From Siphonodentalium dalli (taxonomy: Eukaryota; Mollusca; Scaphopoda; Gadilida; Siphonodentaliidae), in assembly GCA_032622095.1 (NCBI GenBank), contig CP136064.1:7497512-7561511 (forward strand): a stretch of DNA of 64,000 nucleotides. The letters run 5' to 3'. The translations under genes and the position numbers were made by a program. Positions 11,097 through 63,739 of the stretch are shown in pieces. Every line of letters begins with the position of its first letter. The first letter of the stretch is position 1. The notes beneath the pieces were generated by a model, which had not been told where the DNA came from, did not search any database, and saw only the letters and a program-made list of their open reading frames with translations.

Positions 11097-11107
11097 TCTC
11101 AAGAGTT

Positions 11108-18045: not shown

Positions 18046-18156
18046 ATGGCACTGTCAACACAAGATGGACCATCAGATAGTCAATACGTTATGGTTGCCA
18101 AGCTTGATAATGTCCGGAGTTTGTCTACAATACTCAAAGCTGTCCACTTCAAAGAT
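18046..18156 (+). CDS. RAD1: RAD1 exon 1 (residues 1-37)
   Basis: The exon codes for the N-terminus, with the conserved block LDNVRSLSTILKAVHF at residues 21-36, which opens the first PCNA-like domain. The start is well fixed: an in-frame TAA lies two codons upstream (18040-18042), no other ATG is available, and the first residues before QYVMVAKLDN are the short variable leader seen in the family. The donor is GAT|GTATGA, phase 0, and exon 2 continues the alignment without a missing residue. The +4 base is G but -3 is T, so the start context is only moderate. Confidence 0.93.
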
Positions 18157-20244: not shown

Positions 20245-20287
20245 TTAGTATATAATAGCTGTACAAACTGAGGGTTCTGACTTCAAT

Positions 20288-25196: not shown

Positions 25197-25352
25197 ATTG
25201 CTACAGTGTTTGTCAGTCCTATGGGATTCAAGGTAACAGTTGAAGACTCAAAATGCATGCAGGCTAATGCTTTTATTCAAGAAGCTATATTTCATGACTT
25301 TACACTGGATGAAGAACAGATAAGCTTCAAGATCAATCTCACTGTACTGTTG
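25197..25352 (+). CDS. RAD1: RAD1 exon 2 (residues 38-89)
   Basis: The acceptor is TTTTCAG|ATT and the donor TTG|GTAAGT, both strong, phase 0 at each end. The exon codes the rest of the first strand-helix unit of the clamp domain. Visible conserved strings are GFKVTVEDSKCMQANAFIQ (residues 47-65) and FKINLTVLL (81-89). These align residue for residue with the vertebrate protein across both junctions. Confidence 0.95.
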
Positions 25353-27109: not shown

Positions 27110-27295
27110 TTGAGTAATGAAATAATGACAGTGATTTGTCAACAAACATCTATAATCATGCAGCTTGTTCATATATTTATGTCTGGATATGATTTTCAGA
27201 ATATCTTTCAATGCTTTGACTTTTTCCAATATTTACCATCAAGTTTTGATAAACTTTGGTATCTTATTGGACTAAATTGTCTTCATTGACGAACT

Positions 27296-27481: not shown

Positions 27482-27608
27482 ATCAATGATGAACATAAGA
27501 ATTTTTTTTATCTTTTTCTCCATGTTCTAAGATTTTTCATGGTGGTGTTTTTATTGACTTTCATATTTTTGCACATTTACCTCCTGCAACTGCATTGGGT
27601 CCCTTTAA

Positions 27609-27975: not shown

Positions 27976-28070
27976 GAATGTCTTACAATATTTGGTTCTG
28001 GTCCTGCCCAGGGGCAAACCACAAGCCTTAAAATGTGCTATGGCAGTTATGGGTCACCTCTGATTCTCAC
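27976..28070 (+). CDS. RAD1: RAD1 exon 3 (residues 90-121)
   Basis: The acceptor is GTTTTCAG|GAA and the donor CTCAC|GTAAGT. It ends two bases into codon 121, and exon 4 supplies the third base. Coded residues include ECLTIFGSGPAQGQTTSLKM (90-109), matching the conserved C-L-x-I-F-G-S block and the following interdomain strand. The last ~45 bases and the donor are duplicated downstream at 28621-28680. Confidence 0.94.
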
Positions 28071-28620: not shown

Positions 28621-28680
28621 TTAAAATGTGCTATGGCATATATGGGACTCCTCTCATTCTCGCGTAAGTCTGTCAATGAT
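28621..28680 (+). pseudogene. Partial duplicate of RAD1 exon 3 end and donor
   Basis: TTAAAATGTGCTATGGCA and then CTCCTCTCATTCTCGCGTAAGT copy 28027-28082 with several substitutions. The copy includes an intact GTAAGT donor but has no upstream splice acceptor of its own. A tandem duplication with TTAA at the junction, later split by the MITE at 28087-28620, explains the layout. Confidence 0.85.
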
Positions 28681-31451: not shown

Positions 31452-31492
31452 TTTACCTAAGTGAACGATATTGGACTATTATCTGCTGCATT

Positions 31493-32640: not shown

Positions 32641-34290
32641 TTAAACCTTGTGAAACGGGCCGAAGAAGTTCATGAGGAGGTATTTGGTACCAGTAGGTTG
32701 GTGAACTGCTCTCCTGTGAGGATTGAACTAGAACCCGGTGCCATACCATATAGCGTAGCCACACCCCGCCGGATTCCATTTCCGCTGATGGAAAAGGTGA
32801 AGGAAGAACTTGATCGTCTGGTTGAAACTAAGGTAATTATTCCAATTACTGAGCCGACTGATTGGTGCGCTCCCATGGTTCCAGTTTTGAAACCGTCAGG
32901 TAAGGTTCGAATATGTGTTGACGTTAAACGTCTTAATGAGTCAATCAAACGGGAAAGGTACATGATGCCAAATCTGGATGATATTTCACCTAAGCTGGTA
33001 GGTATGACTGTTTTCAGCCGTCTAGACGCAAGCGGAGGTTTTACTCAGATTCCTCTGGATCCAGACAGCGTCCCCTTGACGACATTCATCAGTCCCTTCG
33101 GTAGGTTCGCTTGGCGTCGCGTCCCCCTAGGAATCACGTCGGCGCCAGAAAATTTTCAGCGCAAGATGGTCGAAATGCTCGCTGGCTTGGAAGGGGTGGA
33201 TTGTCTTATAGACGACTGCAGCGTATACGGTAAGGATCAAAGTCAACACGACGAACACCTGGCCAAGGTGATGGAGCGTATGAAAGAATCGGGGTTAAAG
33301 CTGAACAGAGAAAAATGTGAGTTTAGTAAATCTCAGATAAAATTCTTTGGGCACATTTTAGATAAAGTTGGAATTACCCCAAATCCAGAGCGAGTTCAAG
33401 CAGTTATGGATTTGAAGCCGCCGGAAACGGTTTCTGAGCTGCAAAGAATGCTGGGAATGATAAACTACTTGGGCAGGTATGTTCCAAATTTGTCTGACAT
33501 GCTGGCTCCAGTCACTAATCTTTTAAAAGGTGAGATTGCGTGGTTCTGGGGGCCCGAACAGGAGAGAGCATTCGAAGTGGTGAAACTAAAATTAACTACC
33601 GCTCCGACATTAACTTACTATGACCAGAGTAAACCTGTGGTGGTGAGTGCGGACTCCTCAAGCTATGGTCTGGGTGGAGCTCTTTTCATCAAAATTGGGT
33701 CCAAGTTAGCGCCAGTGGCTTTTTGCTCACGAACGCTGACTAATTCGGAACAAAAGTGGGCTCAGATCGAGAAAGAATGCTTAGCCGGAGTTTGGGCATG
33801 TGAAATATTCGCCAGGTATCTTGTCGGCTTGCCTTCATTTACCTTACTAACGGATCATAGGCCGTTAGTACCAATTATCAATAAGACTGATATCGATAAA
33901 GCCCCACTTCGATGTCAGCGATTGCTATTGAGGCTCAGGCGATTTAGCGCCAAAGCAGAGTATGTTCCGGGCAAAGACATGGCCGTGTCTGATTGTCTCT
34001 CGAGAGCGCCTGTTATGACCGAAAATTGTGAGATCGATGAGTGCATGGAAGAGGTAAATTTCTATGTGAATTCTATTCAACAAAATTTGCCTGTCAATGA
34101 CTTGATGTTAACACGAATAAAGGAATCTGTGGCGAAAGACATTGACATTCAGGGAGTTATTCGCCTTGTAACTGACGGCTGGCCAGAAAGTGCGAAAACT
34201 GTGCCAAAATCACTTAGAGGATACTTCACTGCACACGGTGAACTCTCGTTTGCGACCGAACTACTCATGTATCGTTATTCCACATGCAAT
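32617..34290 (+). pseudogene. Retrotransposon reverse transcriptase and RNase H
   Basis: One open frame of ~555 codons. The catalytic first Asp is in SRLDASGGF (33025-33027) and the Asp-Asp pair is in CLIDDCSVYG (33211-33216), which belongs to elements where the usual Tyr is replaced. RNase H shows VVSADSSSYGLGGALF (Asp at 33652) and LTDHRPL (Asp at 33853). This domain pair itself looks intact. The frame breaks at the RNase H-integrase linker near 34265-34275. Confidence 0.92.
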
Positions 34291-35334
34291 GCGAGCTGAA
34301 GTTTTCACAAACCTGCACAGCAGGCATCAAGGAGTTACAAAATGTAAGGACCGTGCAGCCACGTGCGTATGGTGGCCAGACATTAACTCACAAATTAAAA
34401 CACTCGTGGAAACATGTGCCGATTGTCAGAAACACAAACCAGCACAACAAAAGGAACCATTGATAACAAACCAACTACCGAACCTACCATGGCAGAAAAT
34501 TGGAGCAGATGTGTGCTACGTGGGAGGCAAGATATATCTCGTCGTCATTGACTATTTTTCTCGTTACCTGGAAATAGCAATGGTAACCAACGAGTCGTCA
34601 AGCCAAATAATTGGGCGACTGCAGAACATGTTTTCTCATTGGGGTAACACCCAAATACTAAGAACAGACAACGCCAGTTATTTCACATCGAAAGAATTCA
34701 AGGACTTTATCAATTCCCGATCAATTCAACTCATTACATCATCTCCCCATTTCCCTCAATCAAATGGAGAATCGGAAAGTGGTGTTAAACTGGCAAAACA
34801 CATATACTAAATCAGAAGGACATCTTCACTGCATTGGTGGCTTATCACACAACGCCACTCAAATCAACTGGATTTACACCTTGTCAACTAATTATGGGAC
34901 GTAACATTCGCACAAACATCCCATGTGCACCAGAAACATTAACACCTATGTGGCCTTCTCCTGAAAAAGTTAAAGAGCGAGATAAGCAATACAAGGAAAG
35001 TTATAAAAGAACATATGACAAAGGGGCATCACCATTGCCCGAATTACATGCAGGTGACAAAGTTTGAATTCGCACCGCGAACGATAAACAATGGAGCGAG
35101 CCTGGTGTAATCAGCTATAATGTATCCACACCAGAGACACATGGTAGGAGTTATCTTGTTAAAACAAATAAAGGAATTCTGAGGCAAAACCGCAGGCATT
35201 TACAAAATATACCTAACAACGGAAGTGACTCTGATGGAAATGACTCTGATCAAAACAGCGATAACGGATCTTTGAGTCGAACCAGAAGTGGGAGACTGGT
35301 GTTAAGCACCAAACGTTTAATCGAATCTATGTGA
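34270..35334 (+). pseudogene. Retrotransposon integrase, frameshift and stop
   Basis: The N-terminal zinc-binding His-His-Cys-Cys set is visible (34316-34427). The catalytic triad is Asp at 34508, Asp at 34667 and Glu at 34775, with D-x35-E spacing kept. A small frameshift at 34800-34810 creates a TAA, and downstream the frame changes. A TGA at 35065-35067 interrupts the C-terminal domain where a Trp codon is usual. Coding similarity ends at the TGA near 35334. Confidence 0.9.
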
Positions 35335-38995: not shown

Positions 38996-39107
38996 CCTTG
39001 AAGAAGAAGGTGTCCTAACAGACTGCAGTGTGAAGACGATGGAACCTGATGAGATCTTAGATTTTGATTTTTGCAGCTCAAATGTCCTGAATAAAATTAT
39101 ACTTAAG
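38996..39107 (+). CDS. RAD1: RAD1 exon 4 (residues 121-158)
   Basis: The first base completes codon 121 and the exon ends in phase 0. Residues LEEEGVLTDCSVKT (122-135) and LDFDFCSSNVLNKIIL (142-157) are diagnostic of RAD1 and cover the interdomain connector and entry to the second PCNA-like domain. The donor AAG|GTTTGT is weak. A consensus-like GTAAGT four bases downstream (39112) would shift the frame, so the upstream one must be used for the full protein. Confidence 0.94.
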
Positions 39108-39225
39108 GTTTGTAAGTTGATCAGCCACATGATAATACTTAAAGAATACTGAATGCTACTCTCATGCTGAGTTACTAAATATGTGGCAGTCGGTCTCATA
39201 TTGATAAATATTTACTGATGTCTTC

Positions 39226-39586
39226 TATTAATTACTATTAATATATATGTTGAAGTAAGTGCATGCATTTTTAGCTCAACTTTACAAAGTAAAGTTTGAG
39301 CTATTGCCATGGGTTGGTGTCTGTCGTGCGTGTGTCGGCATGCCCTACAGGCCGCATCCTTCATCCGATCTTCACCAAACTTCAAATGTAGCTCTTTCCG
39401 AATTTTGATGAAAAACATGGCCGCCAGCAGCCATCTTGAATTTCAAATTTGAATCTATCAGCACACCCTACAGCCCATATTTATGGCTGGATCATGATGG
39501 GCACCAACCCATGGCAATAGTTCAAACTCTACTTTGTAAAAATGCATGCACTTAATACTTCAATATATATAATTAATAGATTTACT
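39226..39586. mobile_element. TIR MITE, ~360 bp
   Basis: ~85-bp inverted ends run from CTATTAATTA through TATATGTTGAAGTAAGTGCA, TGCATGCATTTTTA and AGCTATTGCCATGGGTTGGT on the left, with the complement on the right to 39586. The interior contains AACATGGCCGCCAGCAGCCA and CATCCGATCTTCACCAAACT strings, which belong to the same dispersed family as 16205-16400. Confidence 0.8.
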
Positions 39587-40410
39587 CTTTGTATGACTAA
39601 ATCCTTTGGCACACCCTACAGACCACATCCCTCATCCGATCATTACCAAACTTCATATTGATCTTCGGTGTGACCTCTAGATGGGAACCTCCTATTTTGA
39701 CCGAAATTTGTTAAAAAACATGGCTGCCAGCAGCCATCTTGGATTTCAAATTTGAATCCATCCGCACACCCTCCAGCCCACATTTATTGGTGAAATGTTT
39801 TAAATGAAAATAATTTCATCTACACAATACGAGACCTTGCTGTAACTTTTTCTCTTTCCTTCTTTATCATTCTATGTGTTGCTCAGCAAAAAATAAATTC
39901 TTCCCAAGTTGAGCTACAGTGTCATTGACACTTTCATTTAAACTTTCACTTACATGTCAAAATACATACTAATCGTGTATAAATAACAAAATAAAAAAGA
40001 AGATGAAGTTTCAACATGACTTAAATGACATGCCCAAACGTCCAAGTGCCAAAAACACTGGTGCCGAAACATCCTGAAAACCAGGGGACCAAACATCCAG
40101 CCAGATGTGCTCATATTGTCGTCCATACACTAGTATAGCCACATTACCTTCACCACAGCCTTTTAGTGCAATCATTATTTCTAATTTACTTATGACTACT
40201 TAATCACTACCCCTTGCCTGGGTGATCATTTAGGCAGGAGTTGTACTTTTTTAAAGATGATGACCCACTTAAAACATGGCCACTAACCTACTTAACTGGT
40301 TTTTTGACATGAAATAATGTATCTGATATACTCATGGTCTAATTACATTGAAGCTATATGCAATTAATTAATTGATTTGTACATCAGTTTTAAATTTCTT
40401 TCTACTAATA
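39587..40410. other. Intron 4, before the satellite
   Basis: 39595-39790 is a second, partial copy of the interior of the preceding MITE (ACATGGCTGCCAGCAGCCAT). At 40025-40100 there is a run of CCAAACGTCC/GCCGAAACATCC-type motifs. Sequence at 40400-40415 (CTACTAATATTTCAG) resembles a branch point plus splice acceptor and abuts the array. Confidence 0.5.
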
Positions 40411-40650
40411 TTTCAGCAGCCAGACCCTTACAGCATCCAACCCCTTACAGTAGCGAGCCCCTTACAGTAGCGAGCCCCTTACAGTAGCGAGCCCCTTACA
40501 GCAGCGAGCCCCTTACAGCAGCGAGCCCCTTACAGTAGCGAGCCCCTTACAGTAGCGAGCCCCTTACAGTAGCGAGCCCCTTACAGTAGCGAGCCCCTTA
40601 CAGCAGCGAGCCCCTTACAGTAGCGAGCCCCTTACAGTAGCGAGCCCCAG

Positions 40651-43600
40651 TAGTGAGCCCCTTACAGTAGCGAGCCCCTTACAGTAGCGAGCCCCAGTAG
40701 TGAGCCCCTTACAGTAGCGAGCCCCTTACAGTAGCGAGCCCCTTACAGTAGCGAGCCCCAGTAGTGAGCCCCTTACAGTAGCGAGCCCCTTACAGTAGCG
40801 AGCCCCAGTAGTGAGCCCCTTACAGTAGCGAGCCCCTTACAGTAGCGAGCCCCTTACAGTAGCGAGCCCCAGTAGTGAGCCCCTTACAGTAGCGAGCCCC
40901 TTACAGTAGCGAGCCCCTTACAGTAGCGAGCCCCTTACAGTAGCGAGCCCCTTACAGTAGCGAGCCCCTTACAGTAGCGAGCCCCTTACAGTAGCGAGCC
41001 CCTTACAGCAGCGAGCCCCTTACAGTAGCGAGCCCCTTACAGTAGCGAGCCCCTTACAGTAGCGAGCCCCTTATAGTAGCGAGCCCCTTACAGTAGCGAG
41101 CCCCTTACAGTAGCGAGCCCCTTACAGTAGCGAGCCCCTTATAGTAGCGAGCCCCTTACAGTAGCGAGCCCCTTACAGTAGCGAGCCCCTTACAGTAGCG
41201 AACCCCTTACAGTAGCGAGCCCCTTACAGCATCCAGACCCTTACAGTAGCGAGCCCCTTACAGTAGCGAGCCCCTTACAGTAGCGAACCCCTTACAGTAG
41301 CGAGCCCCTTACAGCATCCAGACCCTTACAGTAGCGAGCCCCTTACAGTAGCGAGCCCCTTACAGTAGCGAGCCCCTTACAGTAGCGAGCCCCTTACAGT
41401 AGCGAGCCCCTTACAGTAGGAGCCCCTTAAAGTAGCGAGCCCCTTACAGTAGGAGCCCCTTACAGTAGCGAGCCCCTTACAGTAGCGAGCCCCTTACAGT
41501 AGCGAGCCCCTTACAGTAGCGAACCCCTTACAGTAGCGAGCCCCTTACAGCATCCAGACCCTTACAGTAGCGAGCCCCTTACAGTAGCGAGCCCCTTACA
41601 GTAGCGAACCCCTTACAGTAGCGAGCCCCTTACAGCATCCAGACCCTTACAGTAGCGAACCCCTTACAGTAGCGAGCCCCTTACAGTAGCGAGCCCCTTA
41701 CAGTAGCGAGCCCCTTACAGTAGCGAGCCCCTTACAGTAGCGAGCCCCTTACAGTAGGAGCCCCTTACAGTAGCGAGCCCCTTACAGTAGCGAGCCCCTT
41801 ACAGTAGCGAGCCCCTTACAGTAGCGAGCCCCAGTAGTGAGCCCCTTACAGTAGCGAGCCCCTTACAGTAGCGAGCCCCTTACAGTAGCGAGCCCCTTAC
41901 AGTAGCGAGCCCCTTACAGTAGCGAGCCCCTTACAGTAGCGAGCCCCTTACAGTAGCGAGCCCCTTACAGCAGCGAGCCCCTTACAGCAGCGAGCCCCTT
42001 ACAGTAGCGAGCCCCTTACAGTAGCGAGCCCCTTACAGTAGCGAGCCCCTTACAGTAGCGAGCCCCTTACAGTAGCGAGCCCCTTATAGTAGCGAGCCCC
42101 TTACAGTAGCGAGCCCCTTACAGTAGCGAGCCCCTTACAGTAGCGAGCCCCTTACAGTAGCGAGCCCCTTATAGTAGCGAGCCCCTTACAGTAGCGAGCC
42201 CCTTACAGTAGCGAGCCCCTTACAGTAGCGAGCCCCTTACAGTAGCGAGCCCCTTACAGCATCCAGACCCTTACAGTAGCGAGCCCCTTACAGTAGCGAG
42301 CCCCTTACAGTAGCGAACCCCTTACAGTAGCGAGCCCCTTACAGCATCCAGACCCTTACAGTAGCGAGCCCCTTACAGTAGCGAGCCCCTTACAGTAGCG
42401 AGCCCCTTACAGTAGCGAGCCCCTTACAGTAGCGAGCCCCTTACAGTAGCGAGCCCCTTACAGTAGCGAGCCCCTTACAGTAGGAGCCCCTTACAGTAGC
42501 GAGCCCCTTACAGTAGCGAGCCCCTTACAGTAGCGAGCCCCTTACAGCATCCATCCCCTTACAGTAGCGAGCCCCTTACAGTAGCGAGCCCCTTACAGTA
42601 GCGAGCCCCTTACAGTAGCGAGCCCCTTACAGCATCCAACCCCTTACAGTAGCGAGCCCCTTACAGTAGCGAGCCCCTTACAGTAGCGAGCCCCTTACAG
42701 CATCCAACCCCTTACAGTAGCGAGCCCCTTACAGTAGCGAGCCCCTTACAGTAGCGAGCCCCTTACAGTAGCGAGCCCCTTACAGCAGCGAGCCCCTTAC
42801 AGTAGCGAGCCCCTTACAGTAGCGAGCCCCTTACAGCATCCATCCCCTTACAGTAGCGAGCCCCTTACAGTAGCGAGCCCCTTACAGTAGCGAGCCCCTT
42901 ACAGTAGCGAGCCCCTTACAGTAGCGAGCCCCTTACAGTAGCGAGCCCCTTACAGTAGCGAGCCCATTACAGCAGCGAGCCCCTTACAGTAGCGAGCCCA
43001 TTACAGCAGCGAGCCCCTTACAGTAGCGAGCCCCTTACAGCAGTGAGCCCCTTACAGTAGTGAGCCCCTTACAGTAGTGAGCCCCTTACAGTAGTGAGCC
43101 CCTCACAGTAGCGAGCCCCTTACAGTAGCGAGCCCCTTACAGTAGTGAGCCCCTTACAGTAGTGAGCCCCTTACAGTAGCGAGCCCCTTACAGTAGCGAG
43201 CCCCTTACAGCAGCGAGCCCCTTACAGCAGCGAGCCCCTTACAGCAGCGAGCCCCTTACAGTAGCGAGCCCCTTACAGTAGCGAGCCCCTTACAGTAGCG
43301 AGCCCCTTACAGTAGCGAGCCCCTTACAGTAGTGAGCCCCTTACAGTAGTGAGCCCCTTACAGTAGCGAGCCCCTTACAGTAGCGAGCCCCTTACAGTAG
43401 CGAGCCCCTTACAGTAGCGAGCCCATTACAGCAGCGAGCCCCTTACAGTAGCGAGCCCCTTACAGTAGTGAGCCCCTTACAGTAGCGAGCCCCTTACAGC
43501 AGCGAGCCCCTTACAGCAGCGAGCCCCTTACAGTAGCGAGCCCCTTACAGTAGCGAGCCCCTTACAGTAGCGAGCCCCTTACAGTAGCGAGCCCCTTACA

Positions 43601-46600
43601 GTAGTGAGCCCCTTACAGTAGTGAGCCCCTTACAGTAGCGAGCCCCTTACAGTAGCGAGCCCCTTACAGTAGCGAGCCCCTTACAGTAGCGAGCCCATTA
43701 CAGCAGCGAGCCCCTTACAGTAGTGAGCCCCTTACAGTAGCGAGCCCCTTACAGCAGCGAGCCCCTTACAGCAGCGAGCCCCTTACAGCAGCGAGCCCCT
43801 TACAGCAGCGAGCCCCTTACAGTAGCGAGCCCCTTACAGTAGCGAGCCCCTTACAGTAGCGAGCCCCTTACAGCAGCGAGCCCCTTACAGTAGCGAGCCC
43901 CTTACAGCAGCGAGCCCCTTACAGTAGCGAGCCCCTTACAGTAGCGAGCCCCTTACAGTAGCGAGCCCCTTACAGCAGCGAGCCCCTTACAGCAGCGAGC
44001 CCCTTACAGCAGCGAGCCCCTTACAGCAGCGAGCCCCTTACAGTAGCGAGCCCCTTACAGTAGCGAGCCCCTTACAGCAGCGAGCCCCTTACAGTAGCGA
44101 GCCCCTTACAGCAGCGAGCCCCTTACAGTAGCGAGCCCCTTACAGTAGGGAGCCCCTTACAGTAGCGAGCCCCTTACAGTAGCGAGCCCCTTACAGCAGC
44201 GAGCCCCTTACAGCAGCGAGCCCCTTACAGCAGCGAGCCCCTTACAGCAGCTAGCCCCTTACAGTAGCGAGCCCCTTACAGTAGCGAGCCCCTTACAGTA
44301 GCGAGCCCCTTACAGCAGCGAGCCCCTTACAGCAGCGAGCCCCTTACAGTAGCGAGCCCCTTACAGCAGCGAGCCCCTTACAGCAGCGAGCCCCTTACAG
44401 TAGCGAGCCCCTTACAGCAGCGAGCCCCTTACAGTAGCGAGCCCCTTACAGTAGCGAGCCCCTTACAGTAGCGAGCCCCTTACAGTAGCGAGCCCCTTAC
44501 AGTAGCGAGCCCCTTACAGTAGCGAGCCCCTTACAGTAGCGAGCCCCTTACAGTAGTGAGCCCCTTACAGCAGCGAGCCCCTTACAGCAGCGAGCCCCTT
44601 ACAGCAGCGAGCCCCTTACAGCATCCAACCCCTTACAGTAGCGAGCCCCTTACAGTAGCGAGCCCCTTACAGTAGCGAGCCCCTTACAGTAGCGAGCCCC
44701 TTACAGTAGTGAGCCCCTTACAGCAGCGAGCCCCTTACAGTAGCGAGCCCCTTACAGTAGCGAGCCCCTTACAGCAGCGAGCCCCTTACAGTAGCGAGCC
44801 CCTTACAGTAGCGAGCCCCTTACAGTAGCGAGCCCCTTACAGCATCCATCCCCTTACAGCAGCGAGCCCCTTACAGCAGCGAGCCCCTTACAGTAGCGAG
44901 CCCCTTACAGTAACGAGCCCCTTACAGTAGCGAGCCCCTTACAGCATCCAACCCCTTACAGTAGCGAGCCCCTTACAGTAGCGAGCCCCTTACAGCAGCG
45001 AGCCCCTTACAGTAGCGAGCCCCTTACAGTAGCGAGCCCCTTACAGCAGTGAGCCCCTTACAGCAGCGAGCCCCTTACAGTAGCGAGCCCCTTACAGTAG
45101 CGAGCCCCTTACAGTAGCGAGCCCCTTACAGCATCCATCCCCTTACAGCAGCGAGCCCCTTACAGCAGCGAGCCCCTTACAGCATCCATCCCCTTACAGC
45201 ATCCATCCCCTTACAGCAGCGAGCCCCTTACAGTAGCGAGCCCCTTACAGTAGCGAGCCCCTTACAGCAGCGAGCCCCTTACAGTAGTGAGCCCCTTACA
45301 GTAGTGAGCTCCTTACAGTAGTGAGCCCCTTACAGCAGCGAGCCCCTTACAGCAGCGAGCCCCTTACAGCAGCGAGCCCCTTACAGTAGCGAGCCCCTTA
45401 CAGCAGCGAGCCCCTTACAGCAGCGAGCCCCTTACAGCAGCGAGCCCCTTACAGTAGCGAGCCCCTTACAGTAGCGAGCCCCTTACAGTAGTGGGCCCCT
45501 TACAGTAGCGAGCCCCTTACAGCAGCGAGCCCCTTACAGCAGCGAGCCCCTAACAGTAGCGAGCCCCTTACAGTAGCGAGCCCCTTACAGTAGCGAGCCC
45601 CTTACAGTAGCGAGCCCCTTACAGCATCCATCCCCTTACAGCAGCGAGCCCCTTACAGCAGCGAGCCCCTTACAGCATCCATCCCCTTACAGCAGCGAGC
45701 CCCTTACAGCATCCAACCCCTTACAGCATCCATCCCCTTACAGCAGCGAGCCCCTTACAGTAGAGAGCCCCTTACAGTAGCGAGCCCCTTACAGCATCCA
45801 TCCCCTTACAGTAGCGAGCCCCTTACAGCATCCATCCCCTTACAGTAGCGAGCCCCTTACAGTAGCGAGCCCCTTACAGCATCCATCCCCTTACAGTAGC
45901 GAGCCCCTTACAGCATCCATCCCCTTACAGCAGCGAGCCCCTTACAGTAGCGAGCCCCTTACAGCATCCATCCCCTTACAGTAGCGAGCCCCTTACAGCA
46001 TCCATCCCCTTACAGTAGCGAGCCCCTTACAGTAGCGAGCCCCTTACAGCAGCGAGCCCCTTACAGTAGCGAGCCCCTTACAGCATCCATCCCCTTACAG
46101 CAGCGAGCCCCTTACAGCATCCAACCCCTTACAGCATCCATCCCCTTACAGCAGCGAGCCCCTTACAGTAGAGAGCCCCTTACAGTAGCGAGCCCCTTAC
46201 AGCAGCGAGCCCCTTACAGTAGCGAGCCCCTTACAGCAGCGAGCCCCTTACAGCAGCGAGCCCCTTACAGCATCCAACCCCTTACAGCATCCATCCCCTT
46301 ACAGTAGCGAGCCCCTTACAGCATCCATCCCCTTACAGTAGCGAGCCCCTTACAGTAGCGAGCCCCTTACAGCAGCGAGCCCCTTACAGTAGCGAGCCCC
46401 TTACAGCATCCATCCCCTTACAGCAGCGAGCCCCTTACAGCATCCATCCCCTTACAGTAGCGAGCCCCTTACAGTAGAGAGCCCCTTACAGTAGCGAGCC
46501 CCTTACAGTAGCGAGCCCCTTACAGCAGCGAGCCCCTTACAGTAGCGAGCCCCTTACAGCAGCGAGCCCCTTACAGTAGCGAGCCCCTTACAGCAGCGAG

Positions 46601-47818
46601 CCCCTTACAGCAGCGAGCCCCTTACAGCAGCGAGCCCCTTACAGTAGCGAGCCCCTTACAGTAGCGAGCCCCTTACAGTAGCGAGCCCCTTACAGTAGCG
46701 AGCCCCTTACAGCATCCATCCCCTTACAGCAGCGAGCCCCTTACAGCAGCGAGCCCCTTACAGTAGCGAGCCCCTTACAGTAGTGAGCCCCTTACAGTAG
46801 CGAGCCCCTTACAGTAGCGAGCCCCTTACAGCATCCATCCCCTTACAGTAGCGAGCCCCTTACAGCAGCGAGCCCCTTACAGTAGCGAGCCCCTTACAGT
46901 AGCGAGCCCCTTACAGTAGCGAGCCCCTTACAGTAGTGAGCCCCTTACAGTAGCGAGCCCCTTACAGCAGCGAGCCCCTTACAGCAGCGAGCCCCTTACA
47001 GTAGCGAGCCCCTTACAGCAGCGAGCCCCTTACAGTAGTGAGCCCCTTACAGTAGTGAGCCCCTTACAGCAGCGAGCCCCTTACAGTAGCGAGCCCCTTA
47101 CAGTAGCGAGCCCCTTACAGTAGCGAGCCCCTTACAGTAGCGAGCCCCTTACAGTAGTGAGCCCCTTACAGCAGCGAGCCCCTTACAGTAGCGAGCCCCT
47201 TACAGTAGCGAGCCCCTTACAGTAGCGAGCCCCTTACAGTAGCGAGCCCCTTACAGCAGCGAGCCCCTTACAGTAGCGAGCCCCTTACAGTAGCGAGCCC
47301 CTTACAGTAGCGAGCCCCTTACAGTAGCGAGCCCCTTACAGTAGCGAGCCCCTTACAGTAGCGAGCCCCTTACAGTAGCGAGCCCCTTACAGTAGTGAGC
47401 CCCTTACAGTAGCGAGCCCCTTACAGTAGCGAGCCCCTTACAGTAGCGAGCCCCTTACAGCAGCGAGCCCCTTACAGCAGTGAGCCCCTTACAGTAGTGA
47501 GCCCCTTACAGTAGCGAGCCCCTTACAGTAGCGAGCCCCTTACAGTAGCGAGCCCCTTACAGTAGCGAGCCCATTACAGCAGCGAGCCCCTTACAGTAGC
47601 GAGCCCCTTACAGTAGCGAGCCCCTTACAGTAGCGAGCCCCTTACAGTAGCGAGCCCCTTACAGTAGTGAGCCCCTTACAGTAGTGAGCCCCTTACAGTA
47701 GTGAGCCCCTTACAGTAGCGAGCCCCTTACAGTAGCGAGCCCCTTACAGTAGCGAGCCCCTTACAGTAGCGAGCCCCTTACAGTAGTGAGCCCCTTACAG
47801 TAGCGAGCCCCTTACAGA
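40651..47818. repeat. Higher-order copy A of the satellite
   Basis: The order of rare variant units here is repeated in copy B at offsets of 7175, 7192, 7260, 7277 and finally 7396 bp, each step a whole number of units. Markers used: short GAGCCCCAGTAG units, CCTCACAG (43101), CAGCAGCTAG (about 44246), GTGAGCTCC (45304), GTGGGCC (45491), CCCCTAACAG (45547). It ends in CTTACAGATTCCGTGT. Confidence 0.9.
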
Positions 47819-47825
47819 TTCCGTG

Positions 47826-50800
47826 TAGTGAGCCCCTTACAGTAGCGAGCCCCTTACAGTAGCGAGCCCCAGTAGTGAGCCCCTTACAGTAGCGAGCCCC
47901 TTACAGTAGCGAGCCCCTTACAGTAGCGAGCCCCAGTAGTGAGCCCCTTACAGTAGCGAGCCCCTTACAGTAGCGAGCCCCAGTAGTGAGCCCCTTACAG
48001 TAGCGAGCCCCTTACAGTAGCGAGCCCCTTACAGTAGCGAGCCCCAGTAGTGAGCCCCTTACAGTAGCGAGCCCCTTACAGTAGCGAGCCCCTTACAGTA
48101 GCGAGCCCCTTACAGTAGCGAGCCCCTTACAGTAGCGAGCCCCTTACAGTAGCGAGCCCCTTACAGTAGCGAGCCCCTTACAGCAGCGAGCCCCTTACAG
48201 TAGCGAGCCCCTTACAGTAGCGAGCCCCTTACAGTAGCGAGCCCCTTACAGTAGCGAGCCCCTTATAGTAGCGAGCCCCTTACAGTAGCGAGCCCCTTAC
48301 AGTAGCGAGCCCCTTACAGTAGCGAGCCCCTTATAGTAGCGAGCCCCTTACAGTAGCGAGCCCCTTACAGTAGCGAGCCCCTTACAGTAGCGAACCCCTT
48401 ACAGTAGCGAGCCCCTTACAGCATCCAGACCCTTACAGTAGCGAGCCCCTTACAGTAGCGAGCCCCTTACAGTAGCGAACCCCTTACAGTAGCGAGCCCC
48501 TTACAGCATCCAGACCCTTACAGTAGCGAGCCCCTTACAGTAGCGAGCCCCTTACAGTAGCGAGCCCCTTACAGTAGCGAGCCCCTTACAGTAGCGAGCC
48601 CCTTACAGTAGGAGCCCCTTAAAGTAGCGAGCCCCTTACAGTAGGAGCCCCTTACAGTAGCGAGCCCCTTACAGTAGCGAGCCCCTTACAGTAGCGAGCC
48701 CCTTACAGTAGCGAACCCCTTACAGTAGCGAGCCCCTTACAGCATCCAGACCCTTACAGTAGCGAGCCCCTTACAGTAGCGAGCCCCTTACAGTAGCGAA
48801 CCCCTTACAGTAGCGAGCCCCTTACAGCATCCAGACCCTTACAGTAGCGAACCCCTTACAGTAGCGAGCCCCTTACAGTAGCGAGCCCCTTACAGTAGCG
48901 AGCCCCTTACAGTAGCGAGCCCCTTACAGTAGCGAGCCCCTTACAGTAGGAGCCCCTTACAGTAGCGAGCCCCTTACAGTAGCGAGCCCCTTACAGTAGC
49001 GAGCCCCTTACAGTAGCGAGCCCCAGTAGTGAGCCCCTTACAGTAGCGAGCCCCTTACAGTAGCGAGCCCCTTACAGTAGCGAGCCCCTTACAGTAGCGA
49101 GCCCCTTACAGTAGCGAGCCCCTTACAGTAGCGAGCCCCTTACAGTAGCGAGCCCCTTACAGCAGCGAGCCCCTTACAGCAGCGAGCCCCTTACAGTAGC
49201 GAGCCCCTTACAGTAGCGAGCCCCTTACAGTAGCGAGCCCCTTACAGTAGCGAGCCCCTTACAGTAGCGAGCCCCTTATAGTAGCGAGCCCCTTACAGTA
49301 GCGAGCCCCTTACAGTAGCGAGCCCCTTACAGTAGCGAGCCCCTTACAGTAGCGAGCCCCTTATAGTAGCGAGCCCCTTACAGTAGCGAGCCCCTTACAG
49401 TAGCGAGCCCCTTACAGTAGCGAGCCCCTTACAGTAGCGAGCCCCTTACAGCATCCAGACCCTTACAGTAGCGAGCCCCTTACAGTAGCGAGCCCCTTAC
49501 AGTAGCGAACCCCTTACAGTAGCGAGCCCCTTACAGCATCCAGACCCTTACAGTAGCGAGCCCCTTACAGTAGCGAGCCCCTTACAGTAGCGAGCCCCTT
49601 ACAGTAGCGAGCCCCTTACAGTAGCGAGCCCCTTACAGTAGCGAGCCCCTTACAGTAGCGAGCCCCTTACAGTAGCGAGCCCCTTACAGTAGGAGCCCCT
49701 TACAGTAGCGAGCCCCTTACAGTAGCGAGCCCCTTACAGTAGCGAGCCCCTTACAGCATCCATCCCCTTACAGTAGCGAGCCCCTTACAGTAGCGAGCCC
49801 CTTACAGTAGCGAGCCCCTTACAGTAGCGAGCCCCTTACAGCATCCAACCCCTTACAGTAGCGAGCCCCTTACAGTAGCGAGCCCCTTACAGTAGCGAGC
49901 CCCTTACAGCATCCAACCCCTTACAGTAGCGAGCCCCTTACAGTAGCGAGCCCCTTACAGTAGCGAGCCCCTTACAGTAGCGAGCCCCTTACAGCAGCGA
50001 GCCCCTTACAGTAGCGAGCCCCTTACAGTAGCGAGCCCCTTACAGTAGCGAGCCCCTTACAGCATCCATCCCCTTACAGTAGCGAGCCCCTTACAGTAGC
50101 GAGCCCCTTACAGTAGCGAGCCCCTTACAGTAGCGAGCCCCTTACAGTAGCGAGCCCCTTACAGTAGCGAGCCCCTTACAGTAGCGAGCCCATTACAGCA
50201 GCGAGCCCCTTACAGTAGCGAGCCCATTACAGCAGCGAGCCCCTTACAGTAGCGAGCCCCTTACAGCAGTGAGCCCCTTACAGTAGTGAGCCCCTTACAG
50301 TAGCGAGCCCCTTACAGTAGCGAGCCCCTTACAGTAGTGAGCCCCTTACAGTAGTGAGCCCCTCACAGTAGCGAGCCCCTTACAGTAGCGAGCCCCTTAC
50401 AGTAGTGAGCCCCTTACAGTAGTGAGCCCCTTACAGTAGCGAGCCCCTTACAGTAGCGAGCCCCTTACAGCAGCGAGCCCCTTACAGCAGCGAGCCCCTT
50501 ACAGCAGCGAGCCCCTTACAGTAGCGAGCCCCTTACAGTAGCGAGCCCCTTACAGTAGCGAGCCCCTTACAGTAGCGAGCCCCTTACAGTAGTGAGCCCC
50601 TTACAGTAGTGAGCCCCTTACAGTAGCGAGCCCCTTACAGTAGCGAGCCCCTTACAGTAGCGAGCCCCTTACAGTAGCGAGCCCATTACAGCAGCGAGCC
50701 CCTTACAGTAGCGAGCCCCTTACAGTAGTGAGCCCCTTACAGTAGCGAGCCCCTTACAGCAGCGAGCCCCTTACAGCAGCGAGCCCCTTACAGTAGCGAG

Positions 50801-53800
50801 CCCCTTACAGTAGCGAGCCCCTTACAGTAGCGAGCCCCTTACAGTAGCGAGCCCCTTACAGTAGTGAGCCCCTTACAGTAGTGAGCCCCTTACAGTAGCG
50901 AGCCCCTTACAGTAGCGAGCCCCTTACAGTAGCGAGCCCCTTACAGTAGCGAGCCCATTACAGCAGCGAGCCCCTTACAGTAGTGAGCCCCTTACAGTAG
51001 CGAGCCCCTTACAGCAGCGAGCCCCTTACAGCAGCGAGCCCCTTACAGCAGCGAGCCCCTTACAGCAGCGAGCCCCTTACAGTAGCGAGCCCCTTACAGT
51101 AGCGAGCCCCTTACAGTAGCGAGCCCCTTACAGCAGCGAGCCCCTTACAGCAGCGAGCCCCTTACAGTAGCGAGCCCCTTACAGCAGCGAGCCCCTTACA
51201 GTAGCGAGCCCCTTACAGTAGCGAGCCCCTTACAGTAGCGAGCCCCTTACAGCAGCGAGCCCCTTACAGCAGCGAGCCCCTTACAGCAGCGAGCCCCTTA
51301 CAGCAGCGAGCCCCTTACAGTAGCGAGCCCCTTACAGTAGCGAGCCCCTTACAGCAGCGAGCCCCTTACAGTAGCGAGCCCCTTACAGCAGCGAGCCCCT
51401 TACAGTAGCGAGCCCCTTACAGTAGGGAGCCCCTTACAGTAGCGAGCCCCTTACAGTAGCGAGCCCCTTACAGCAGCGAGCCCCTTACAGCAGCGAGCCC
51501 CTTACAGCAGCGAGCCCCTTACAGCAGCTAGCCCCTTACAGTAGCGAGCCCCTTACAGTAGCGAGCCCCTTACAGTAGCGAGCCCCTTACAGCAGCGAGC
51601 CCCTTACAGCAGCGAGCCCCTTACAGTAGCGAGCCCCTTACAGCAGCGAGCCCCTTACAGCAGCGAGCCCCTTACAGTAGCGAGCCCCTTACAGCAGCGA
51701 GCCCCTTACAGTAGCGAGCCCCTTACAGTAGCGAGCCCCTTACAGTAGCGAGCCCCTTACAGTAGCGAGCCCCTTACAGTAGCGAGCCCCTTACAGTAGC
51801 GAGCCCCTTACAGTAGTGAGCCCCTTACAGCAGCGAGCCCCTTACAGCAGCGAGCCCCTTACAGCAGCGAGCCCCTTACAGCATCCAACCCCTTACAGTA
51901 GCGAGCCCCTTACAGTAGCGAGCCCCTTACAGTAGCGAGCCCCTTACAGTAGCGAGCCCCTTACAGTAGTGAGCCCCTTACAGCAGCGAGCCCCTTACAG
52001 TAGCGAGCCCCTTACAGTAGCGAGCCCCTTACAGCAGCGAGCCCCTTACAGTAGCGAGCCCCTTACAGTAGCGAGCCCCTTACAGTAGCGAGCCCCTTAC
52101 AGTAGCGAGCCCCTTACAGCATCCATCCCCTTACAGCAGCGAGCCCCTTACAGCAGCGAGCCCCTTACAGTAGCGAGCCCCTTACAGTAACGAGCCCCTT
52201 ACAGTAGCGAGCCCCTTACAGCATCCAACCCCTTACAGTAGCGAGCCCCTTACAGTAGCGAGCCCCTTACAGCAGCGAGCCCCTTACAGTAGCGAGCCCC
52301 TTACAGTAGCGAGCCCCTTACAGCAGTGAGCCCCTTACAGCAGCGAGCCCCTTACAGTAGCGAGCCCCTTACAGTAGCGAGCCCCTTACAGTAGCGAGCC
52401 CCTTACAGCATCCATCCCCTTACAGCAGCGAGCCCCTTACAGCAGCGAGCCCCTTACAGCATCCATCCCCTTACAGCATCCATCCCCTTACAGCAGCGAG
52501 CCCCTTACAGTAGCGAGCCCCTTACAGTAGCGAGCCCCTTACAGCAGCGAGCCCCTTACAGTAGTGAGCCCCTTACAGTAGTGAGCTCCTTACAGTAGTG
52601 AGCCCCTTACAGCAGCGAGCCCCTTACAGCAGCGAGCCCCTTACAGCAGCGAGCCCCTTACAGTAGCGAGCCCCTTACAGCAGCGAGCCCCTTACAGCAG
52701 CGAGCCCCTTACAGCAGCGAGCCCCTTACAGTAGCGAGCCCCTTACAGTAGCGAGCCCCTTACAGTAGTGGGCCCCTTACAGTAGCGAGCCCCTTACAGC
52801 AGCGAGCCCCTTACAGCAGCGAGCCCCTAACAGTAGCGAGCCCCTTACAGTAGCGAGCCCCTTACAGTAGCGAGCCCCTTACAGTAGCGAGCCCCTTACA
52901 GCATCCATCCCCTTACAGCAGCGAGCCCCTTACAGCAGCGAGCCCCTTACAGCATCCATCCCCTTACAGCAGCGAGCCCCTTACAGCATCCAACCCCTTA
53001 CAGCATCCATCCCCTTACAGCAGCGAGCCCCTTACAGTAGAGAGCCCCTTACAGTAGCGAGCCCCTTACAGCATCCATCCCCTTACAGTAGCGAGCCCCT
53101 TACAGCATCCATCCCCTTACAGTAGCGAGCCCCTTACAGTAGCGAGCCCCTTACAGCATCCATCCCCTTACAGTAGCGAGCCCCTTACAGCATCCATCCC
53201 CTTACAGCAGCGAGCCCCTTACAGTAGCGAGCCCCTTACAGCATCCATCCCCTTACAGTAGCGAGCCCCTTACAGCATCCATCCCCTTACAGTAGCGAGC
53301 CCCTTACAGTAGCGAGCCCCTTACAGCAGCGAGCCCCTTACAGTAGCGAGCCCCTTACAGCATCCATCCCCTTACAGCAGCGAGCCCCTTACAGCATCCA
53401 ACCCCTTACAGCATCCATCCCCTTACAGCAGCGAGCCCCTTACAGTAGAGAGCCCCTTACAGTAGCGAGCCCCTTACAGCAGCGAGCCCCTTACAGTAGC
53501 GAGCCCCTTACAGCAGCGAGCCCCTTACAGCAGCGAGCCCCTTACAGCATCCAACCCCTTACAGCATCCATCCCCTTACAGTAGCGAGCCCCTTACAGCA
53601 TCCATCCCCTTACAGTAGCGAGCCCCTTACAGTAGCGAGCCCCTTACAGCAGCGAGCCCCTTACAGTAGCGAGCCCCTTACAGCATCCATCCCCTTACAG
53701 CAGCGAGCCCCTTACAGCATCCATCCCCTTACAGTAGCGAGCCCCTTACAGTAGAGAGCCCCTTACAGTAGCGAGCCCCTTACAGTAGCGAGCCCCTTAC

Positions 53801-56080
53801 AGCAGCGAGCCCCTTACAGTAGCGAGCCCCTTACAGCAGCGAGCCCCTTACAGTAGCGAGCCCCTTACAGCAGCGAGCCCCTTACAGCAGCGAGCCCCTT
53901 ACAGCAGCGAGCCCCTTACAGTAGCGAGCCCCTTACAGTAGCGAGCCCCTTACAGTAGCGAGCCCCTTACAGTAGCGAGCCCCTTACAGCATCCATCCCC
54001 TTACAGCAGCGAGCCCCTTACAGCAGCGAGCCCCTTACAGTAGCGAGCCCCTTACAGTAGTGAGCCCCTTACAGTAGCGAGCCCCTTACAGTAGCGAGCC
54101 CCTTACAGCATCCATCCCCTTACAGCAGCGAGCCCCTTACAGCAGCGAGCCCCTTACAGTAGCGAGCCCCTTACAGTAGTGAGCCCCTTACAGTAGCGAG
54201 CCCCTTACAGTAGCGAGCCCCTTACAGCATCCATCCCCTTACAGTAGCGAGCCCCTTACAGCAGCGAGCCCCTTACAGTAGCGAGCCCCTTACAGTAGCG
54301 AGCCCCTTACAGTAGCGAGCCCCTTACAGTAGTGAGCCCCTTACAGTAGCGAGCCCCTTACAGCAGCGAGCCCCTTACAGCAGCGAGCCCCTTACAGTAG
54401 CGAGCCCCTTACAGCAGCGAGCCCCTTACAGTAGTGAGCCCCTTACAGTAGTGAGCCCCTTACAGCAGCGAGCCCCTTACAGTAGCGAGCCCCTTACAGT
54501 AGCGAGCCCCTTACAGTAGCGAGCCCCTTACAGTAGCGAGCCCCTTACAGTAGTGAGCCCCTTACAGCAGCGAGCCCCTTACAGTAGCGAGCCCCTTACA
54601 GTAGCGAGCCCCTTACAGTAGCGAGCCCCTTACAGTAGCGAGCCCCTTACAGCAGCGAGCCCCTTACAGTAGCGAGCCCCTTACAGTAGCGAGCCCCTTA
54701 CAGTAGCGAGCCCCTTACAGTAGCGAGCCCCTTACAGTAGCGAGCCCCTTACAGTAGCGAGCCCCTTACAGTAGCGAGCCCCTTACAGTAGTGAGCCCCT
54801 TACAGTAGCGAGCCCCTTACAGTAGCGAGCCCCTTACAGTAGCGAGCCCCTTACAGCAGCGAGCCCCTTACAGCAGTGAGCCCCTTACAGTAGTGAGCCC
54901 CTTACAGTAGCGAGCCCCTTACAGTAGCGAGCCCCTTACAGTAGCGAGCCCCTTACAGTAGCGAGCCCATTACAGCAGCGAGCCCCTTACAGTAGCGAGC
55001 CCCTTACAGTAGCGAGCCCCTTACAGTAGCGAGCCCCTTACAGTAGCGAGCCCCTTACAGTAGTGAGCCCCTTACAGTAGTGAGCCCCTTACAGTAGTGA
55101 GCCCCTTACAGTAGCGAGCCCCTTACAGTAGCGAGCCCCTTACAGTAGCGAGCCCCTTACAGTAGCGAGCCCCTTACAGTAGTGAGCCCCTTACAGTAGC
55201 GAGCCCCTTACAGTAGTGAGCCCCTTACAGTAGCGAGCCCCTTACAGTAGGGAGCCCCTTACAGTAGCGAGCCCCTTACAGTAGTGAGCCCCTTACAGTA
55301 GCGAGCCCCTTACAGTAGCGAGCCCCTTACAGTAGCGAGCCCATTACAGTAGCGAGCCCCTTACAGTAGCGAGCCCCTTACAGTAGCGAGCCCCTTACAG
55401 TAGCGAGCCCCTTACAGTAGCGAGCCCCTTACAGTAGCGAGCCCCTTACAGTAGCGAGCCCCTTACAGTAGTGAGCCCCTTACAGTAGCGAGCCCCTTAC
55501 AGTAGCGAGCCCCTTACAGTAGCGAGCCCCTTACAGCAGCGAGCCCCTTACAGCAGTGAGCCCCTTACAGTAGTGAGCCCCTTACAGTAGCGAGCCCCTT
55601 ACAGTAGCGAGCCCCTTACAGTAGCGAGCCCCTTACAGTAGCGAGCCCATTACAGCAGCGAGCCCCTTACAGTAGCGAGCCCCTTACAGTAGCGAGCCCC
55701 TTACAGTAGCGAGCCCCTTACAGTAGCGAGCCCCTTACAGTAGTGAGCCCCTTACAGTAGTGAGCCCCTTACAGTAGTGAGCCCCTTACAGTAGCGAGCC
55801 CCTTACAGTAGCGAGCCCCTTACAGTAGCGAGCCCCTTACAGTAGCGAGCCCCTTACAGTAGTGAGCCCCTTACAGTAGCGAGCCCCTTACAGTAGTGAG
55901 CCCCTTACAGTAGCGAGCCCCTTACAGTAGGGAGCCCCTTACAGTAGCGAGCCCCTTACAGTAGCGAGCCCCTTACAGTAGCGAGCCCCTTACAGTAGCG
56001 AGCCCATTACAGTAGCGAGCCCCTTACAGTAGCGAGCCCCTTACAGTAGCGAGCCCCTTACAGTAGCGAGCCCCTTACAG
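47826..56080. repeat. Higher-order copy B plus terminal expansion
   Basis: Copy B repeats the variant order of copy A to about 55214 (markers at 50361, about 51523, 52581, 52768 and 52824). It carries one 119-bp (7-unit) local duplication near 53985-54240. About 867 bp (51 units) follow that have no counterpart at the end of copy A. They include a 680-bp (40-unit) repeat marked by CAGTAGGGAG at 55246 and 55926. Confidence 0.88.
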
Positions 56081-56319
56081 ATTCCGTGTTTTTAATTTTG
56101 ATCCATTTCTGACTTTACCAAAATAATTTTCAATTTTATATATTCCATATTGATGGTATAAACTTTACTTTTGATACCTACTGTTCAATCTGGATGGGTA
56201 GCAATGGGAAACAAAGTGTTTGGTTGCCACAATGTTGAAATCATCTATATATTTGCCACAATGTTGAAATCATCCATATATTTGCCACAATGTTGAAATC
56301 ATCTATATAACTATTTCAG
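56081..56319. other. Intron 4, 3' end with triplicated 29-mer
   Basis: After the satellite, GCCACAATGTTGAAATCATC and the following nine bases are repeated three times (56226, 56255, 56284). The last copy runs into ACTATTTCAG, the exon 5 acceptor. The repeat therefore covers the branch-point window. Confidence 0.85.
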
Positions 56320-56442
56320 TCTGAGTGTCTGAAAGAAGCATTTAATGAGCTTGATATGACAAGTGAGGTGTTAGAAATTGTGTTGTCACCAGATGCACCC
56401 TATTTCCGCCTTTCTACGTTTGGTAACTCTGGGAGCGTACAT
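56320..56442 (+). CDS. RAD1: RAD1 exon 5 (residues 159-199)
   Basis: The acceptor is ATTTCAG|TCT and the donor CAT|GTGAGT, phase 0 at both ends. It codes KEAFNELDMTSEVLEIVLSP (163-182) and PYFRLSTFGNSGSVH (185-199), the most conserved part of the second clamp domain. It lies 239 bp downstream of the satellite. Confidence 0.96.
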
Positions 56443-56471
56443 GTGAGTATAGTTGATTGTTTTCACACAAA

Positions 56472-56523
56472 TACCCATAATTCTGCTGTGGTTAAGGAGT
56501 CGATTATTTAGAGCATTACTGTA
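56472..56523. mobile_element. Half copy of the ACAGTAAT MITE
   Basis: ACCCATAATTCTGCTGTGGT through GAGCATTACTGTA is the right arm of the family at 27296-27481. The left arm is missing. The 23-bp satellite starts exactly at its outer TA. Confidence 0.75.
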
Positions 56524-57907
56524 TATGATATCTAAATAACCAAATTATATGATATCTATATAACCAAATATATTATATCTAAGTAACTATATATGATATC
56601 TAAATAACCAAATATATGATATCTAAATAACCATATATGATATTGAAATAACCAAATATATGATATCTAAATAACCACATATATGATATTGAAATAGCCA
56701 AATATATGATATCTAAATAACCAAATATATGATATCTAAATAACCAAATATATGATATCTAAATAACCATATATATGATATCTAAATAACCAAATATATG
56801 ATATCTAAATAACCAAATGTATGATAACTAAATAACCAAATATATGATATCTAAATAACCAAAAATATGATATCTAAATAACCAAATATATGATATCGAA
56901 ATAACCAAATATATGATATCTAAATAACCAAAAATATGATATCTAAATAACCAAATATATGATATCGAAATAACCAAATATATGATATCTGAATAACCAA
57001 ACATATGATATCAAAATAACCAAATATATGACATCGAAATAACCAAATATATGATATCGAAATAACCAAATATATGATATCTAAATAACCAAATATATGA
57101 TATCTAAATAACCAAATATATGACATCTATATAACCAAATATATGACATCTAAATAACCAAATATATGATATCTAAATAACCAAATATATGACATCAAAA
57201 TAACCAAATATATGACATCGAAATAACCAAATATATGACATCTAAATAACCAAATATATGATATCTAAATAACCAAATATATGATATCTAAATAACCAAA
57301 TATATGATATCTAAATAACCAAATATATGATATCTAAATAACCAAATATATGATATCGAAATAACCAAATATATGATATCGAAATAACCAAATATATTAT
57401 ATCTAAATACCAAATATATGATATCTAAATGACCAAATATATGATATCGAAATAACCAAATATATGATATCGAAATAACCGAATATATGATATCGAAATA
57501 ACCAAATATATGACATCTAAATAACCAAATATATGATATCTAAATAACCAAATATATGATATCTAAATAACCAAATATATGATATCTAAATAACCAAATA
57601 TATGATATCTGAATAACCAAATATATGATATCTAAATAACCAAATATATGATATCTAAATAACCAAATATATGATATCGAAATAACCAAATATATGATAT
57701 CGAAATAACCAAATATATTATATCTAAATACCAAATATATGATATCTAAATGACCAAATATATGATATCGAAATAACCAAATATATGATATCGAAATAAC
57801 CAAATATATGATATCGAAATAACCAAATATATGATATCGAAATAACCAAATATATGATTTCGAAATAACCAAATATATGATATCGAAATAACCAAATATA
57901 TGATATC
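56524..57907. repeat. 23-bp satellite in intron 5, about 60 copies
   Basis: The core is ATGATATCTAAATAACCAAA plus TAT; frequent variants have TCGAAATAACC, GACATC, or CAAAATAACC. Because the unit lacks minus-strand stops, long minus-strand frames repeating Tyr-Ile-Trp-Leu-Phe appear. They have no start context or domain and are repeat artefacts. Confidence 0.95.
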
Positions 57908-58553: not shown

Positions 58554-58618
58554 TCAGACTTCCCAAAGGATTCTGATATGGTTGAACAGTTCCAGTGTAC
58601 AGAGACACAGATTAACAG
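58554..58618 (+). CDS. RAD1: RAD1 exon 6 (residues 200-221, partial gene end)
   Basis: The acceptor is TTCTTCAG|TCA and the donor AACAG|GTAAAT. It ends two bases into the codon for Arg221. It codes SDFPKDSDMVEQFQC and TETQINR, corresponding to the conserved P-K-D-S-D block and the N-R that precedes the final strands. No exon for the remaining ~60 residues was found down to 64000. Confidence 0.94.
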
Positions 58619-62845: not shown

Positions 62846-63660
62846 AATAAGGTGAACAACTCTGGGAAAAAAAGTAGGACGGTGGTATATTATTGCAATA
62901 TACCAAATATCAATTGAATCCATTAATATTTCATTGAGTTATCGCACTAAAAGTGATAAAATTGTTATTAAAATAGACAAACTAAGACCCATAACTCCGG
63001 AAAAAAATTCGGACAAACCAGGTTTTCGAACTCGTCCGAGATATTGTTGCAAGAGACTCATATACCAAATATTGTTTAAATCAGTTAATATTTCATTGAG
63101 TTATCGCGCTAACGGTGATAACATTGCTAAAAATAGACAAACTAAGACCCATAACTCTGGAAAAAAATTCGGACAAACCAGGTTTTCAAACTCGTCCGAG
63201 ATATTGTTGCAAGAGACTCATATACCAAATATTGTTTAAATCAGTTAATATTTCATTGAGTTATCGCGCTAACGGTGATAACATTGCTAAAAATAGACAA
63301 ACTAAGACCCATAACTCTGTGAAAAAAATTCTGACAAACCTGGTTTTCGAACTCGTCCGAGATATTGTTCCAAGAGTCTCATATACCAAATAGTGTTGAA
63401 ATCGGTTAATACATGTATTTCATCGAGTTATCGCGCTAACGGTGATAAAATTGCTAAAAATAGACAAACTAAGACCCATAACTCCGGAAAAAATATTCGG
63501 ACAAACCTGGTTTTCGAATATGTTCGAGATATTGTTGCAAGAGTCTCATATATACCGAATATTGTTGAAATTGGTTAATATTTGCGTGAGTTATCGCGCT
63601 AACAGTGAAAAACTAAAAAAAAAGTCATCAAAGATGGATAACTCTTGTCAAAAAGTTCGG
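62846..63660. repeat. ~160-bp tandem repeat, about 6 copies
   Basis: ATAACTC(T/C)GGAAAAAA recurs at about 62993, 63151, 63312 and 63480, with diverged first and last units. Each unit continues through TTCGGACAAACC, CGTCCGAGATATTGTTGCAA, ATACCAAATATTGTT and GAGTTATCGCGCTAACGGTG. Frames across it repeat the same peptide and are not genes. Confidence 0.9.
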
Positions 63661-63739
63661 ACGTGACCCATTTTCTACAGGCAGTAAATAGTCATTGGGA
63701 GCAACTCACATACCAAAATTTTTTTGGATTCCGTTTACA

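Follow-up and report, generated by a model that had tools for sequence, protein, structure and literature searches.

A 15.7-kb minisatellite of a 17-bp unit in intron 4 of the RAD1 gene of Siphonodentalium dalli, probably enlarged by one recent doubling

Kilobase-scale variable number tandem repeats (VNTRs) are already established in introns. The CACNA1C TRACT is a human intronic VNTR of a 30-bp unit that spans 3-30+ kb with many unit variants, and whose expansion has been attributed to perfect repeat tracts, its length variation between people having been measured (PMC13131567). In ABCA7, the length of an intronic VNTR correlates with expression and with skipping of exon 19 (PMC5954066), and in Drosophila the introns of kl-3 and kl-5 contain megabases of simple satellite, which are transcribed (PMC6508621). 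Helentron-type elements of the oyster Crassostrea gigas carry satellite-like arrays whose monomers average 140-180 bp and, in the studied clusters, number no more than 29 per array (PMC7492417). The subject of this report is a tandem array of a 17-bp unit, CAGTAGCGAGCCCCTTA, in the checkpoint-clamp gene RAD1 of the scaphopod mollusc Siphonodentalium dalli. The DNA analysed (the window) is a stretch of 64,000 nucleotides from contig CP136064.1 of assembly GCA_032622095.1 (positions 7,497,512 to 7,561,511, forward strand), and all coordinates are counted from its first letter. The array is probably an intronic minisatellite of the VNTR type, which grew locally from its 17-bp unit and went through one recent, one-step doubling.

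The RAD1 array resembles the CACNA1C TRACT in being a kilobase-scale intronic array of a short unit with many variants, and departs from it in its unrelated unit (17 instead of 30 bp) and in showing one en-bloc doubling with flanking sequence at the junction (PMC13131567). It shares with the ABCA7 VNTR its position as an intronic tandem array in a coding gene (PMC5954066), and with the kl-3 and kl-5 introns the large share of the intron that is tandem repeat, although it consists of 15.7 kb of a 17-mer and not of megabases (PMC6508621). The arrays of C. gigas are likewise scattered in gene-bearing DNA, but they are short and have repeated element flanks, whereas the RAD1 array has about 925 pieces of a 17-bp unit and no repeated flank in the window (PMC7492417). 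The array is a large member of a class of repeats already known, not a new kind of element, and its doubling junction carries information by itself. Satellites have reportedly been found also in HSP70 introns of Mytilus galloprovincialis, where the likeness is the intron position in an invertebrate gene. Neither this array nor such a doubling is described in the titles and abstract openings of the matches listed for bivalve intron minisatellites, 17-bp mollusc satellites, microhomology VNTRs and Mytilus HSP70 introns. An earlier note on this DNA knew of no satellite described with this unit; four sub-strings of the unit gave no match in a literature search, which lends that claim a little weight, but kilobase-scale intronic minisatellites as such had been described before.

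The array was delimited with Tandem Repeats Finder (TRF) and by wraparound alignment to the consensus, and has the following parts.

40414..56080, + strand: 17-bp tandem array, consensus CAGTAGCGAGCCCCTTA, 925 pieces, 58.8% G+C
40414..40664, + strand: left end of the array, 15 units beyond the duplicated part, the outermost two units being variants
40665..47814, + strand: copy 1 of the doubled array, 422 units, 7,150 bp
47815..47839, + strand: junction piece CAGATTCCGTGTAGTGAGCCCCTTA, 25 bp, composed of CAG, ATTCCGTGT and AGTGAGCCCCTTA
47840..55210, + strand: copy 2 of the doubled array, 435 units, 7,371 bp
54667..56080, + strand: right end with a further 680-bp (40-unit) tandem duplication

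TRF reports a period of 17, 924.2 copies and 93% matches, and the wraparound alignment divides the array into 904 pieces of 17 bp, 11 of 13 bp, eight of 16 bp, one of 25 bp and a terminal CAG. The exact consensus is found in 522 of the 925 pieces, followed by the variants CAGCAGCGAGCCCCTTA (172), CAGTAGTGAGCCCCTTA (71) and CAGCATCCATCCCCTTA (47), which are grouped in zones along the array, as judged by eye. With up to 3 mismatches allowed, the unit has 842 matches, against a mean of 0.21 in 100 shuffles, and all 842 are inside the array, with none elsewhere in the window; the surrounding DNA has a G+C content of mostly 32-48%. Minisatellites, or VNTRs, are head-to-tail arrays with a unit of roughly 7-100 bp, a range into which this unit falls; as a class they occupy one locus or a few loci and vary in length between alleles. 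Classical satellite DNA forms very long heterochromatic arrays, usually in several genomic places, and what the window shows is one array within one gene. These results, together with the exon mapping given below, bear out the earlier note as to the array, its unit, its size (about 920 copies) and its site between exons 4 and 5 of RAD1. No match was obtained with Rfam families at gathering thresholds, in a tRNA and tmRNA search, or with two-unit probes against prokaryote genomes and viral contigs. That the array might code for protein was considered and set aside, since a 17-bp unit does not keep a triplet frame and contains TAG, and the longest stop-to-stop frames have 118 codons.

The whole array is one array of about 7.2 kb present twice. 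In self-comparison, stretches of 1,000 bp recur with 100% identity 7,192, 7,277 and 7,396 bp away, and when the two halves are aligned with each unit written as one letter, the 421 aligned units (7,133 bp) are all identical, without a single substitution, and are interrupted by eight whole-unit gap events (of 1, 1, 1, 2, 1, 1, 1 and 7 units). The longest exact run common to both copies is 121 units; when the units of copy 2 were shuffled 100 times, it never exceeded 15. With no base change in 7,133 bp, the rule of three would place the upper 95% bound at about 4 in 10,000 per site. It follows that the doubling is a recent one, and the species may still be polymorphic for it. Five of the gaps are one consensus unit gained or lost within runs of consensus, another is a single variant unit doubled, and the other two add two units and duplicate seven, so the number of units changes within the array. 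Duplications of other sizes are also present, with groups of units that repeat at offsets of 272, 323 and 408 bp.

The join between the two copies is preserved in the junction piece. Its first 12 bases (CAGATTCCGTGT, 47815-47826) are the right edge of the array plus 9 bp of right flank, and occur exactly twice in the window, at this mid-array position and at the true right edge (56078); the flank part, ATTCCGTGT at 47818-47826, is unique flank sequence, identical to 56081-56089. The rest of the piece, AGTGAGCCCCTTA, is the same as 40652-40664, and the units after it match those after 40664. A GT at the joint is common to both parents, giving a 2-bp overlap, and the 17-bp register is broken there. 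Read along these sequences, the first copy passes its right edge, takes in nine bases of flank and continues from a point within the left end. The result is a tandem duplication with a two-base joint, of the sort that template switching or end-joining would produce and crossing-over between repeats would not. The array had been called spacer-free, which holds for nearly its whole length, the exception being these 9 bp of flank-derived sequence in its middle.

This history probably began with local slippage and small duplications, which would have built an array of about 7.4 kb. A template switch during replication, or end-joining, with a 2-bp overlap would then have re-copied this array, passing from nine bases beyond its right edge to its left end, and afterwards slippage and small tandem duplications would have altered the number of units faster than point mutation altered the bases. 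The doubled array is a natural clock for minisatellite change, in which an identical start has led to no base change and eight changes of unit number in 7.1 kb. The flank trapped at the junction shows that a single event other than repeat-to-repeat crossing-over can double an array as large as this one. Should the doubled allele still segregate, alleles of ~8 kb and ~16 kb would allow RAD1 splicing and expression to be compared.

The host gene was traced with a human RAD1 sequence as probe, and six coding exons are in view.

18046..18156, + strand: RAD1 coding exon 1, from the ATG
25197..25352, + strand: RAD1 coding exon 2
27976..28070, + strand: RAD1 coding exon 3
38996..39107, + strand: RAD1 coding exon 4, with its donor at 39108
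39108..56319, + strand: RAD1 intron 4, 17,212 bp, 91% of it array
56320..56442, + strand: RAD1 coding exon 5, preceded by CAG, its acceptor weak on a rough matrix
58554..58618, + strand: RAD1 coding exon 6

All six exons are followed by GT, and exons 2 to 6 are preceded by AG, so that the array is flanked, on the same strand (+), by exons 4 and 5 with GT and AG borders. The spliced six-exon product (220 residues) matches Pfam Rad1 (PF02144) at 7e-69 and, over its residues 6-220, RAD1 chains of solved structure at 5.4e-93; in prokaryote genomes, 22 stretches fitted a pattern made from it, but none was confirmed. A last coding exon, for human residues ~223-282, was not found between exon 6 and the end of the window; the description of the gene as otherwise intact is therefore upheld for the six exons in view and does not extend to the last one. 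From its position, the array would form part of the RAD1 pre-mRNA until ordinary splicing takes out intron 4, and it is presumably without a function of its own.

Several points weigh against this reading. At seven of the eight gaps it is copy 2 that has the additional units, a bias for which the reading offers no reason. Copy 1, in turn, is without eleven units that directly precede the true right edge, and this calls for one further event or more. The single-locus status of the array would hold as far as the 64-kb window reaches, and a chimeric or misjoined assembly is possible, as this is a single assembled sequence. The last point can be extended into an explanation that accepts the array but takes its doubling for an artefact: one ~7.2-kb array, or two alleles of it that are nearly identical, would have been placed end to end by a chimeric read or a misjoin. 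Repeats are a recognised cause of assembly errors, and the absence of substitutions in 7,133 bp would be expected if one molecule had been read twice. Nevertheless, a simple assembly overlap is disfavoured because the junction holds flank sequence and overlaps by 2 bp, which, even with the 9 bp of flank, is too little for an assembler overlap, and the halves differ by their eight whole-unit gaps and at their right ends, so that an artefact is unlikely. The junction marks a precise spot at which the assembly can be tested.

Rather than a product of local growth, the array could have been carried in by a mobile element that is dispersed in the genome, either a Helentron/HINE-like element or a miniature inverted-repeat transposable element (MITE). 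The 17-mer would then be present at many loci, with RAD1 intron 4 as one insertion, and conserved, repeated element ends would be expected on both sides of a Helentron/HINE-carried array. Satellite-like arrays of the oyster sit inside such elements (PMC7492417), and a second minisatellite in the window adjoins a repeated element end (56469-56521). Even with 3 mismatches allowed, however, the 17-bp unit has no match in the rest of the window, the flanks of the array (39800-40413 and 56081-56319) have no other match in it at E 1e-5, and the oyster arrays have longer monomers and, in the clusters studied, fewer copies (PMC7492417), all of which makes an origin as cargo improbable.

A different proposal concerns the effect of the array, whose acceptor-like sites would compete with a weak exon 5 acceptor, so that array length would tune RAD1 splicing or expression. 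Splice sites were scored on rough matrices. On these, the exon 5 acceptor scores 2.08 (rank 2,250 of the 4,859 AG sites in the window), while the other four RAD1 acceptors in view rank 2, 4, 14 and 136; 1,738 of the 2,622 AG sites in the array outscore the exon 5 site, 1,064 of them with scores above 4. Of the array's 752 GT sites, 83 have scores above 5, which places them over the exon 4 donor (4.93) but under the exon 5 donor (8.9). The correlation of VNTR length with exon skipping in ABCA7 is a precedent (PMC5954066). However, the exon 5 acceptor is also surpassed by 511 of the 2,237 AG sites that lie beyond the array, so part of the excess reflects the weakness of the matrix, which may under-rate this acceptor, or of the acceptor itself, and the strong exon 5 donor (8.9, rank 20 of 3,453) favours exon definition. 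Because the matrices ignore branch points and exon definition, competition of this sort is given low odds, which the control outside the array lowers slightly further, and it is very doubtful that the array affects RAD1 in this way. In a more specific and very improbable form, hundreds of CCCCTTACAG acceptor-like sites would act as a length-dependent brake, and the doubling would lower or re-route RAD1 splicing; if this were true, a checkpoint-clamp gene would carry a segregating, self-inflicted splice-competition allele.

Two further features lie at the borders of the array. The sequence TTTCTACTAATATTTCAG (40399-40416), which is branch-point-like and acceptor-like, adjoins its left edge; considered as an exon start, it reaches 3.13 on the acceptor matrix (rank 1,982 of 4,859), and this candidate was set aside. 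Bearing on the same idea, the array holds weak donor-like sites, and AATAAA or ATTAAA occurs in intron 4 only at 39892 and 39990, upstream of the array. On the other side, a 29-bp tandem repeat with three copies (56224-56309) ends ten bases before exon 5, so repeats reach the acceptor region.

Unequal homologous crossing-over between repeats, which is the usual mechanism of array length change and would agree with the smaller whole-unit duplications in the array, is scarcely credible for the doubling, because the junction holds right-flank sequence joined at two bases and breaks the 17-bp register, where a repeat-to-repeat crossover would trap no flank, and it is thus contradicted for the junction unless the latter is itself an artefact.

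The array had also been proposed as a likely source of replication stress, for which the DNA gives little reason. No canonical G-quadruplex motif is found in the array on either strand, the - strand having 896 runs of at least four G. Hairpins were dropped as a candidate, since the single 171-nt stretch tested folds worse than most shuffles both as sense RNA (z 1.42, 188 of 200 shuffles folding at least as well) and, at the same length, as the G-rich DNA strand (z 2.07, 198 of 200). The + strand has a GC skew of -0.18 to -0.36 (1-kb windows, 41001 to 56000), so the RAD1 transcript is C-rich across the array, an orientation that disfavours R-loops. The general fragility of long tandem arrays may be the sole ground left for replication stress.

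Other repeats were observed in and around RAD1. A 50-bp sequence at 28621-28670, by appearance a truncated duplicate of exon 3, is an 88% copy of the 3' part of this exon plus its donor (GTAAGT at 28664), and in place of the 5' part it has a repeat that is also present at 20168-20247. Intron 3 contains pieces of a Ty3/gypsy-like retrotransposon (31461-34810), where three open frames that overlap one another encode reverse transcriptase, RNase H and integrase and give a weak gag-like match; the Pfam scan took 13 of the 63 open reading frames (ORFs) of at least 85 residues in the window, of which three have retrotransposon domains and ten have no match. The second minisatellite (56522-57907, 23 bp x 60.5, AT-rich) lies in RAD1 intron 5, and the element end that it adjoins is repeated within 23685-24217 and 27295-27483. 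A 1-kb inverted repeat (10088-11107 and 14762-15763, 94% identity), whose scanned ORFs match no Pfam family, has more inverted matches close by. Near the end of the window there is a tandem repeat of ~160 bp x 4.4 (62898-63717), which is like the oyster satellite-like arrays in monomer length (PMC7492417), and near its start (1215-2009) a degenerate array of several periods, built on the palindromic GGAGATATCTCC.

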